Shown here: positions 51,628 to 55,066 of the stretch, piece by piece
Layout of the letters: the number at the start of each line of letters is the position of its first letter
Numbering within the stretch: position 1 is the first letter of the stretch
Assembly: GCA_905182565.1 (NCBI GenBank)
Contig: CAJJCB010000027.1
Coordinates: 186,001-250,000, forward strand
Length of the DNA: 64,000 nucleotides
Reading direction: 5' to 3'
From: Acidimicrobiaceae bacterium
GTDB lineage: Bacteria > Actinomycetota > Acidimicrobiia > Acidimicrobiales > Poriferisodalaceae
Position numbers and translations under genes: made by a program
Notes under the pieces: generated by a model
What the model was told of the DNA's origin: nothing
Database searches by the model: none
Seen by the model: only the letters and a program-made list of their open reading frames with translations

Positions 51628-51682
51628 GATTCTCCCTTCTATAGGCGTATCCTGCCAGGCTGTGAGCACTAATCAGCGAATC

Positions 51683-52627
51683 ATGAGATATGAATCTTTG
51701 TTACCTGAAACCCAAATCGGATTTTTAGGTCCAAAGGGAACCTTCGCGGAACAAGCTTTATTAAGCGAAGCGGACCTTGCAGCGACCCAGGTCCGACCGT
51801 ATGACTCAATACCTGATGTGCTCAACGCTCTTGTAACAGAAGAAGTTGATCTGGGTTTTGTTCCTATTGAAAACGCAATTGAAGGTGCAGTAAATGTTAC
51901 GCAAGATTCGATTGCGTTTGACTTAGATTTAAAAATCCATCGAGAGGTTGTGTTGGATGTCCAGCTCGATCTCTTAGCGCTTCCTGGCACGAAAATTGTT
52001 GATATCGATACTGTCCTATCTTTTCCGGTAGCCATAGCTCAGTGTCGAGCTTTTCTGAGAGAACGTCTTCCTACTGCAAAAGTTGTTGCGGCAACATCAA
52101 CAGCTGAGGCTGCTCGGCAAGTAGGTGAGCAGCATATGGAAGGTGTTGCAACAATTTCTAATTCTCGGGCAGGAGAAATTTATGGTCTCGATGTTGTTGA
52201 ACAGGCGATAGAAGATCATGCTGGTAATCAAACTAGATTTTTACTTCTTGGGAGAAATGGTATTCCTGCGCCTACTGGAAATGACAAGTCGAGCGTGGTG
52301 GTTTTTCAGCAAGCCAATCAGCCAGGAAGTCTCTTAGCTATCCTTCACGAATTCGCTGCTCGAAATATTGACATAACACGACTTGAATCGCGCCCTACCC
52401 GCAGAGAGCTAGGAGATTATTGTTTCCTGCTTGACTTTGAGGGGCACATTTCTGACGAGGTTGTTGCCGATTGTTTGAGAGAGCTAAAAATGAAACAAGG
52501 GAATGTTAAGTTTTTGGGTTCCTACCCTGCATATGGTTTAGCTGGTTCTCAAACTGTTAGGGATGCCAATGCAGATTGGACTCAAGCTCAAGAGTGGATT
52601 GAGGCGTTACGGAACCAAATGGAGTAA
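51683..52627 (+). CDS. pheA: Prephenate dehydratase PheA
   Basis: A 314-aa enzyme that turns prephenate into phenylpyruvate for phenylalanine synthesis. QIGFLGPKGTFAEQALL opens the catalytic domain, NQTRFLLLGR holds the TRF motif, and the ACT domain has NIDITRLESRPTRRELGDY. ATG at 51683 is preferred; GTG at 51662 is possible. Its last 14 codons plus the following bases recur at 54220, next to the intact tRNA-Ser. Confidence 0.93.
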   Translation: MRYESLLPETQIGFLGPKGTFAEQALLSEADLAATQVRPYDSIPDVLNALVTEEVDLGFVPIENAIEGAVNVTQDSIAFDLDLKIHREVVLDVQLDLLALPGTKIVDIDTVLSFPVAIAQCRAFLRERLPTAKVVAATSTAEAARQVGEQHMEGVATISNSRAGEIYGLDVVEQAIEDHAGNQTRFLLLGRNGIPAPTGNDKSSVVVFQQANQPGSLLAILHEFAARNIDITRLESRPTRRELGDYCFLLDFEGHISDEVVADCLRELKMKQGNVKFLGSYPAYGLAGSQTVRDANADWTQAQEWIEALRNQME

Positions 52628-52732
52628 GGCTTGTTAGCGCGAAGGGTGGATCCGATCCTGCGGATGCTTGAGCATCAACGTTTTTAAAGGCCGACCCACT
52701 GGCGCTTTCTGCGATCACTCCGCCTTTTACGC
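52584..52732. repeat. Left copy of a pheA-tail / tRNA-Ser duplication
   Basis: The first 57 bases (52584-52640), the end of pheA plus a few more, match 54220-54276 at 55 of 57 positions. From 52641 on the match weakens to roughly two thirds with a 3-nt gap, and continues through the whole tRNA-Ser to about 52732 (54371 in the other copy). The pheA part is intact here while the tRNA part is eroded. Confidence 0.85.
52640..52721 (-). pseudogene. Degenerate tRNA-Ser (UGA-type) copy
   Basis: This minus-strand stretch aligns along its whole length with the intact tRNA-Ser(UGA) at 54276-54360. The variable-arm region GGATGCTTGAGCATC is almost unchanged (one difference in 15), but the acceptor stem (GAAGGGT versus GGAGGGG), the T-loop and the anticodon stem are broken. 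It cannot fold as a normal tRNA and is best seen as a decayed copy. Confidence 0.7.
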
Positions 52733-53035
52733 AGCTATAGCTAAGCGGCTATTAGCAGCGGAAGATAACTATTGTAGGACCCAAGATAAGAGCTATCAGA
52801 AGTTAAGTAGAACTGAGCTCTATCCTCCGTCGATACCTTTTACTAATTCAGTTAATGAGCTCCACGCTTTTGTGAATTACTGACGCTTAGATACGGGTCT
52901 GTGAGTATGGCTGGAATATTTGTTGGCTCTGGCAAATTTATTGACGCGGCGATACTTAATTTTCGGTTCGTGCTCTCGTATCCGTGCTTATATATCCTAT
53001 TAAACGTTTGTTAACTATTGAGAAGGTGGAGTTTT
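52722..53035. other. Gap before the methyltransferase gene
   Basis: A 314-base stretch. A 71-codon frame (52668-52883) crosses it but overlaps the degenerate tRNA and shows no known motif, so I do not call it. AT-rich sequence near 52985-53010 (TATATA) may hold the methyltransferase promoter; AAGGTGG lies just before its ATG. Confidence 0.45.
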
Positions 53036-54094
53036 ATGTCAGATGAAATAGACATGCAAGGTGTTGAGGCTTATGCGGGGGCACTATTTGGCCACGCGGT
53101 TGGAGCTGTGACTATAGCCTGCTCAGAGATGGCTAGGCGCCTAGGTTTTTATGAGCATTTGTCTGGTAGTCCAGGCATGACTTCAGATGAACTTGCGTCA
53201 GCTGCTGAAACACATCCGCGTTTGACTCGTGAGCTTCTAGACCAACAAGCGTCAGTGCAAATGGTTACATATGACGCAGACAAAGACACGTACGCGTTAA
53301 GCCCAGAAGGCGCGATGGTAGTTGCAAATAAACATTCACCAGCTTGGATGATGGGTGCCGTGCAAGCGATTGGTGCCATGTTTATGGGGCATGATCAAGT
53401 TGAAGCCGCTTTCCGCGGAGATGGTGGCGTTGCATGGGGTGATCAGCATCCATGTTTGTTTGAAGGTACTGCTGAATTTTTTCGCCCATGCTACGAGCAT
53501 TCATTGATTCAGAGTTTTATCCCCTCATTAGCAGGAGGAATTGACCGTATAGCGAGTGGAGCTGTGGTAGCTGATGTTGGTTGTGGCGGCGGCTTGTCTA
53601 CTCTTGTTCTGGCCGAGGCGTATCCAGACAGTACCTTTGTCGGTATTGACTTTCACGAACCTTCGATCGAGATGGCTCGATCAGAAGCCGAAAAACGCGG
53701 CATAACAAATGCTCGATTCGAAGTAGCAAGTGGCACAACATTTGAAGGATCGTATGATTTAGTTTGCTTTTATGACTGTATGCATGACATGGGGGATCCG
53801 GTAGGGATTGCCTCACATGCAAAAACTCAATTAGCAGATGGTGGTTCGGTAATGTTGATTGAACCATTTGCGTTCGACACAAGAGTTGAAAATCATGGTG
53901 GGCTTGGTGCGGCATTCTATGGATTCTCAAGTTTTTTCTGTACACCTTGTTCATTGTCACAAGAAGTGGGCAGAGGGTTAGGGGCGCAAGCCGGTGAGCC
54001 TGGAATGAGACTTGTGTTTGAAGAAGCTGGCTATGGTGATTTCAAGCGGGTAGCCGAATCTGCGACAAATATTGTTTACGAGGCTTTTGCATAA
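53036..54094 (+). CDS. Class I SAM-dependent methyltransferase (Rv2258c-like)
   Basis: A 352-aa protein. The N-terminal half is winged-helix-like (EHLSGSPGMTSDELASAA), as in O-methyltransferases and in the mycobacterial Rv2258c-type proteins. Motif I is VVADVGCGGGLSTLVLAEAY (Gly-rich loop about residues 179-186), followed by FVGIDFHEPSIEMA and CFYDCMHDMGDPVG. ATG at 53036 is chosen because AAGGTGG lies six bases upstream. It is the only gene between the two copies of the pheA-tail/tRNA-Ser duplication, so it may have come in with that rearrangement. The substrate is unknown. Confidence 0.82.
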   Translation: MSDEIDMQGVEAYAGALFGHAVGAVTIACSEMARRLGFYEHLSGSPGMTSDELASAAETHPRLTRELLDQQASVQMVTYDADKDTYALSPEGAMVVANKHSPAWMMGAVQAIGAMFMGHDQVEAAFRGDGGVAWGDQHPCLFEGTAEFFRPCYEHSLIQSFIPSLAGGIDRIASGAVVADVGCGGGLSTLVLAEAYPDSTFVGIDFHEPSIEMARSEAEKRGITNARFEVASGTTFEGSYDLVCFYDCMHDMGDPVGIASHAKTQLADGGSVMLIEPFAFDTRVENHGGLGAAFYGFSSFFCTPCSLSQEVGRGLGAQAGEPGMRLVFEEAGYGDFKRVAESATNIVYEAFA

Positions 54095-54219
54095 AGTTAA
54101 ATATGGTTCAAAATCTTATTTATTAGCTGATTCACAAAGCGTTATGTATGAGACATGAACCTACCGGTACCAAAAAATTGACCTAGAAAAACATCGCTAG
54201 CTCTTCCGCGCCCAACATT

Positions 54220-54371
54220 AAGCTCAAGAGTGGATTGAGGCGTTACGCAACCAATTGGAGTAAGGCTTGTTAGCGCGGAGGGGGGGGGATTCGAACCCCC
54301 GGATGCTTGCGCATCACTGGTTTTCAAGACCAGCGCATTAGTCCGCTCTGCCACCCCTCCGCCTTGCACGC
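54220..54371. repeat. Right copy of the pheA-tail / tRNA-Ser duplication
   Basis: The first 57 bases repeat the end of pheA (54220-54276; 55 of 57 the same as 52584-52640), but here there is no pheA gene before them, so this is a non-coding remnant. It runs directly into the intact tRNA-Ser and stays alignable to about 54371. Confidence 0.85.
54276..54360 (-). tRNA. tRNA-Ser (anticodon TGA)
   Basis: On the minus strand the acceptor stem GGAGGGG (54360-54354) pairs with CCCCTCC (54283-54277), with discriminator G at 54276. The anticodon loop GTCTTGAAAAC gives TGA (UGA), the variable arm is long (GATGCGCAAGCATC), and the T-arm reads GGGGGTTCGAATCCCC. CCA is not encoded. The 3-prime end touches a displaced copy of the pheA tail. 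Confidence 0.93.
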
Positions 54372-54787: not shown

Positions 54788-54881
54788 GGAGAGGTGCCAG
54801 AGTCCGGTTGAATGGGCTTCCCTGCTAAGGAAGTGATGGGTTTATACCTATCCGTGGGTTCGAATCCCACCCTCTCCGCCA
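54788..54881 (+). tRNA. tRNA-Ser (anticodon GCT)
   Basis: Acceptor stem GGAGAGG (54788-54794) pairs with CCTCTCC (54871-54877), then discriminator G and an encoded CCA. The anticodon loop CCCTGCTAAGG gives GCT. The long variable arm (GATGGGTTTATACCTATC) and GGGTTCGAATCCC T-arm are normal for serine tRNA. Confidence 0.95.
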
Positions 54882-54919
54882 AATTAAAGCAATCTATATC
54901 TGTAATAAAAGTAAATCTA

Positions 54920-54993
54920 GGGTTAGTAGCTCAACTGGATAGAGCATCGGTTTACGGAACCGAAGGTTCGGGGTTCGAATCCCTGCTAGCCCG
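54920..54993 (+). tRNA. tRNA-Arg (anticodon ACG)
   Basis: Acceptor stem GGGTTAG (54920-54926) pairs with CTAGCCC (54986-54992), discriminator G, no encoded CCA. The anticodon stem TCGGT/ACCGA encloses TTACGGA, giving ACG, which is read as inosine-CG. T-arm GGGGTTCGAATCCC is standard. It lies 38 bp after tRNA-Ser(GCT), and the two may be one transcript. Confidence 0.94.
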
Positions 54994-55066
54994 CTTAAAT
55001 AGTTTCTGGATTCGTTAGCTCGTGAGAAAGTCTTTTTTAGAAACGGTTTAATTTCTTTGACATGAT

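Follow-up and report, generated by a model that had tools for sequence, protein, structure and literature searches.

Organization of the pheA–tRNA-Ser locus

We analyzed a 64,000-nucleotide stretch (the window) of a 368-kb contig of an Acidimicrobiaceae genome (G000; 2.65 Mb in 27 contigs, 95.6% complete). In it, an intact pheA gene is followed by a dead tRNA-Ser(UGA) copy, a single methyltransferase gene, a pheA stub, and an intact tRNA-Ser(UGA) gene (Table 1). pheA and tRNA-Ser(UGA) are convergent with an 8-bp gap, and PheA is 94% identical to that of the congener G001.

Table 1. Features of the pheA–tRNA-Ser(UGA) locus, numbered from the first nucleotide of the window
Feature	Coordinates	Strand	Evidence
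pheA, prephenate dehydratase with ACT domain, intact	51677-52627 (ORF start possibly 51626)	+	Pfam PDT and ACT; NCBIfam prephenate dehydratase above cut-off
Near-identical core, left copy: final 44 bp of pheA plus spacer	52584-52641	+	56/58 identical to 54220-54277
tRNA-Ser(UGA) relic, dead	52636-52724, similarity on to ~52735	-	65/91 versus right copy and flank; no tRNA call; broken stems
Intergenic stretch upstream of methyltransferase, no detectable relative	52736-53035	.	No significant match found
Class I SAM methyltransferase with Rv2258c-like winged-helix N-terminal domain	53036-54094	+	Pfam PF13847 and PF21320
Probable decayed pheA remnant, from the methyltransferase stop codon	54093-54151 (to 54162), matching pheA 52503-52566 (to 52572)	+	41/58 identical
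Near-identical core, right copy: pheA end plus spacer, putative gene-conversion tract	54220-54277	+	56/58; JC distance 0.035 versus 0.36-0.37 on either side
pheA stub, coding part of right core	54220-54263
tRNA-Ser(UGA), intact	54275-54360	-	ARAGORN; Rfam RF00005 at 58.9 bits; identical in G001
tRNA-Ser(GCU) and tRNA-Arg(ACG), family-conserved neighbors	54788-54994	+

An earlier note, made from the sequence of the window alone, had described a unit of pheA tail and tRNA-Ser occurring twice, 1.64 kb apart. We found this direct repeat (52584-52735 versus 54220-54371, start-to-start 1636-1639 bp) to have a local alignment score of 102.5, against a maximum of 41.5 among 200 shuffles. The asymmetry seen by that reader, with intact pheA and a decayed tRNA on the left and an intact tRNA on the right, also agrees with the tRNA calls and with folding: neither ARAGORN nor Rfam calls a tRNA in the left copy, whose folding z is -0.18 relative to shuffles versus -2.83 for the intact right gene. 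As the note had it, the methyltransferase is the one gene between the repeats.

Empty site in related genera

We found the arrangement without an insert, pheA> <tRNA-Ser(UGA) tRNA-Ser(GCU)> tRNA-Arg(ACG)>, in the family genera g2, g6 and g7. In genus g4, tRNA-Ser(UGA) also adjoins pheA, and a TauD-like dioxygenase gene separates the two serine tRNAs. The empty pheA–tRNA-Ser site that the earlier note had proposed looking for is thus present in all four genera; therefore, the insert is a change in the present genus.

The g4 dioxygenase gene encodes 275 aa (L005:510-1337, also in L007) and has no flanking repeats of at least 20 nt. Together with the present insert, it indicates that single genes entered the tRNA cluster of this family more than once. 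Another genome, G015, carries a second tRNA-Ser(UGA)/Ser(GCU)/Arg(ACG) cluster of quite different sequence away from pheA (L102, contig C59), which may be contamination or a divergent copy.

Extent and uneven divergence of the repeat

The repeat covers the whole tRNA, ~11 bp past its 5' end, the spacer and the end of pheA, and its identity peaks outside the tRNA; farther out on the tRNA 5' side, there is no similarity between the copies. For the stretch upstream of the methyltransferase (52736-53035), no significant match turned up in the right flank, in the upstream regions of relatives or elsewhere in the genome, and the gap sequence 52636-53036 as a whole was absent elsewhere in G000 and from G001.

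The pheA match, previously given as 55/57, proved nearly identical as stated, with the block corrected to 56/58, of which 44 bp are pheA coding sequence and the rest is spacer. Identity does fall at the tRNA 3' end, to a value slightly higher than the two thirds first estimated (65/91 with 6 gap positions). What probably does not hold is the reduction of the right pheA copy to its last 57 bp, since decayed homology is likely to lie farther left, at 54093-54151.

This more distant alignment (54093-54162) is probably pheA homology reaching left to the methyltransferase stop codon. It has the same order and orientation as pheA, beats 99.85% of shuffles (p ~0.0015), and was recovered as well with the G001 pheA tail as query (0/1000 shuffles). 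Because unrelated pieces of the window reach its score ~1% of the time, we consider the remnant probable, not certain.

Across the decayed pheA stretch, the core and the tRNA, identity runs ~71%, 97% and 71%, corresponding to JC distances of 0.37, 0.035 and 0.36, where the left boundary of the high-identity tract depends on the moderately significant 54093-54162 alignment. Divergence in the core is roughly a tenth of that in the flanking parts, and the identity of the core differs from that of the relic with a Fisher p of 0.00025. This pattern fits the earlier suggestion of two events or gene conversion, and local gene conversion of the core is probable on these distances.

The enclosed methyltransferase is a family gene

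Relatives of the methyltransferase with solved structures include 5f8c (Rv2258c-like; E 3.6e-36) and 8g5s (TnmJ; E 2.7e-33), which resemble it in sequence over nearly the whole protein. Unlike these, the relatives of the present protein sit beside hydrolase, luciferase-like and Rieske oxygenase genes. We found copies with 64-73% identity in 11 family genomes (genera g4, g6 and g7), and at the loci read in these genera the gene lies in a native cluster with luciferase-like, alpha/beta hydrolase, Rieske oxygenase, SnoaL-like and MFS transporter genes.

The cluster is dispersed in G000, where contigs C3 and C13 each end in a piece of the hydrolase gene and C5 carries the Rieske gene. Around the methyltransferase here, there are no significant remains of the upstream or downstream flanks of the relatives. 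The branch leading to G000 measures 0.42 changes per site for the methyltransferase and 0.40 for pheA. Matching branches and a conserved home cluster in relatives are what vertical descent with relocation of a native family gene, and no foreign cargo, would give. Our search of viral contigs returned no related methyltransferase, phage records gave tRNA-Ser matches only, and the sole match of the genome contig scan was a 72% relative on JAAZYR010000012.1.

The two alpha/beta hydrolase pieces (residues 1-125 and 149-311, at the ends of G000:C3 and G000:C13; L124, L123) may be one assembly-split gene or two copies. Genome G002 (L129, contig C23) keeps the cluster around the hydrolase and the SnoaL/MFS genes, with no methyltransferase between the hydrolase and a 186-aa gene; the Rieske gene is absent there as well.

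Relative age of the duplication and the congener G001

At little-constrained sites, G000 and G001, the only congener compared, differ by a total JC distance of 0.18-0.29, or ~0.1 per lineage; of the four-fold sites in pheA, a fraction of 0.23 differs. From their functional partners, the relic lies 0.36 and the decayed pheA stretch 0.37 away; nearly all of this divergence falls on one lineage because those partners hardly change. As 0.36-0.37 exceeds ~0.1 per lineage, the duplication looks older than the G000/G001 split and the last exchange of the core (0.035) younger, on a dating that uses few sites and assumes neutral decay.

Eight tRNA sites distinguish the genus from the rest of the family; at these, the relic has the family base three times, the genus base twice and another base three times. 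All family-type bases are in the anticodon stem, and the genus-type bases are in the variable arm. Small as these numbers are, the pattern is in keeping with an old origin of the relic in the genus lineage.

In G001, the contig carrying intact pheA (end of C50) breaks off 15 bp after the stop codon, immediately ahead of the tRNA. Another contig (end of C11) starts inside pheA, continues through the tail and the intact tRNA, and extends beyond it. These contigs have exactly 119 bp in common, past which 12/102 sites differ. As 119 is among the default k-mer sizes of the MEGAHIT assembler, the overlap indicates an assembly-graph fork, which would reflect either two copies within one genome or two strains binned together. 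The G001 bin holds no relic, methyltransferase or insert, and a fragment that short could drop out of a bin. With its contigs ending in two distinct pheA tails, G001 may share the duplication.

By hand count, pheA tails differ at 2/58 sites within G000, 6/56 within G001 (where they may be strains, not paralogues) and 8-9 between the genomes. If the two G001 tails are paralogues, this closer resemblance within than between genomes is as expected from gene conversion. In a separate alignment of pheA tails, some family loci stood in reverse orientation, and our conclusions draw on the L011-L013 rows alone as outgroups.

Origin of the locus

We consider it fairly likely that an old, non-mobile duplication, relocation of a native gene, complementary loss and a later gene conversion of ~60 bp together made this locus. 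In an ancestor of the genus, a segment with the pheA end and the complete, convergent tRNA-Ser(UGA) gene would have been duplicated. The methyltransferase, which is clustered elsewhere in relatives, would have come between the copies at that time or afterward. Each copy would then have lost what the other supplied, with decay of the left tRNA and of the right pheA stub. More recently, gene conversion, or a double exchange with the same effect, would have homogenized a tract of ~60 bp (pheA end plus spacer) and left the tRNA parts unlike each other. The single-copy ancestral arrangement in g2, g4, g6 and g7 and the mutually exclusive decay of the copies fit reciprocal loss, which the earlier note had offered as 'tandem duplication with later loss'; the high-identity tract bounded by older divergence fits gene conversion.

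Tandem or dispersed duplication with reciprocal loss likewise gives two short-segment copies, complementary losses and an empty ancestral arrangement in relatives. Unlike the plain form, the present locus has a relocated native gene between its copies and a short tract that is near-identical. Short repeats that undergo gene conversion or concerted evolution share with it the sharp rise of identity between diverged flanks and, should the two G001 tails be paralogues, a within-genome similarity that exceeds the between-genome similarity; in contrast to the usual case, the tract is only ~60 bp, near the lower limit for homologous recombination, and is seen at one complete locus. Literature searches returned no precedent for the exact pheA/relic/methyltransferase/tRNA arrangement, so that the locus is new as an instance and ordinary as a kind of genome evolution. 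An apparent island flanked by tRNA copies can thus arise without a mobile element, by duplication, native gene relocation and complementary decay, a minor warning for island prediction based on broken tRNA copies.

Alternative origins

It is unlikely that the methyltransferase, pheA end and tRNA were imported as one block from a relative, whether strain or species, through homologous recombination in the end of pheA (a circle entering by a Campbell-type single exchange, or illegitimate joining at one end with homologous joining at the other). Such an import would explain both the methyltransferase lying outside its home cluster and a tRNA with a genus-type anticodon stem beside a relic with a family-type stem. 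However, the divergence of the methyltransferase fits vertical descent, no donor sequence was found, and the G001 bin has no methyltransferase gene.

Selection could have held the 58-bp core without any gene conversion, on the left as pheA coding sequence and on the right as the tRNA 3' trailer or terminator region, given that the convergent genes with their 8-bp gap place the downstream signals of the tRNA in the pheA end. We regard this as distinctly unlikely, since the right-hand core of G000 differs from that of G001 at 8/58 sites, hence is not strongly constrained, and the changes group by genome instead of by copy type.

The earlier note had also raised an old element integrated at the tRNA 3' end, in which case tRNA-Ser(UGA) would have served as the attachment site, the right tRNA would have been restored by element DNA, the left would be the displaced original, and the methyltransferase would be leftover cargo. 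tRNA genes are common integration sites, partial tRNA duplication through integration is documented in archaea (PMC9897764), and the intact tRNA at one end with a broken one at the other resembles the tRNA fragments that flank a segment in such cases. Unlike those fragments, the decayed copy here is a full-length gene, the repeat takes in the 5' flank and the end of the neighboring gene and is best conserved outside the tRNA, and the sole gene between the copies is no integrase but a family gene that looks vertically inherited and had no relative among the viral contigs. Nor did the locus show an attachment-site-like repeat, in which a short identical core would stop at the tRNA 3' end. This origin is consequently not supported, and we give it little credence.

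Even more doubtful is the idea that selection keeps two half-dead copies in exchange, such that the right pheA end would act as a tRNA processing or termination region, the left relic would act as a pheA terminator, and conversion would keep the shared core working in both. On the + strand, the variable arm of the relic (52663-52681) does fold into a hairpin of 5 bp with T5 behind it, resembling a weak terminator immediately downstream of pheA. With three such sites in the region versus two expected by chance from shuffles, we rejected the relic as a terminator, this being a consensus match at about the shuffle rate. A role of the relic as a UAA suppressor tRNA was dropped as well, its stems being broken.

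An assembly artefact is scarcely credible even in a metagenome-like genome of 27 contigs, because the copies differ by decay that misassembly cannot make; the locus also lies on a single contig, with the empty-site order of the relatives continuing on both sides.

Three tyrosine recombinases are encoded in the genome, all on other contigs. Two are Xer-sized (~311-314 aa) and have no tRNA in the flanks examined. The third (G000:C4:32-517; L134, L135) lies at a contig end ~1 kb from tRNA-Arg(UCG), and is likely part of a real integrated element.
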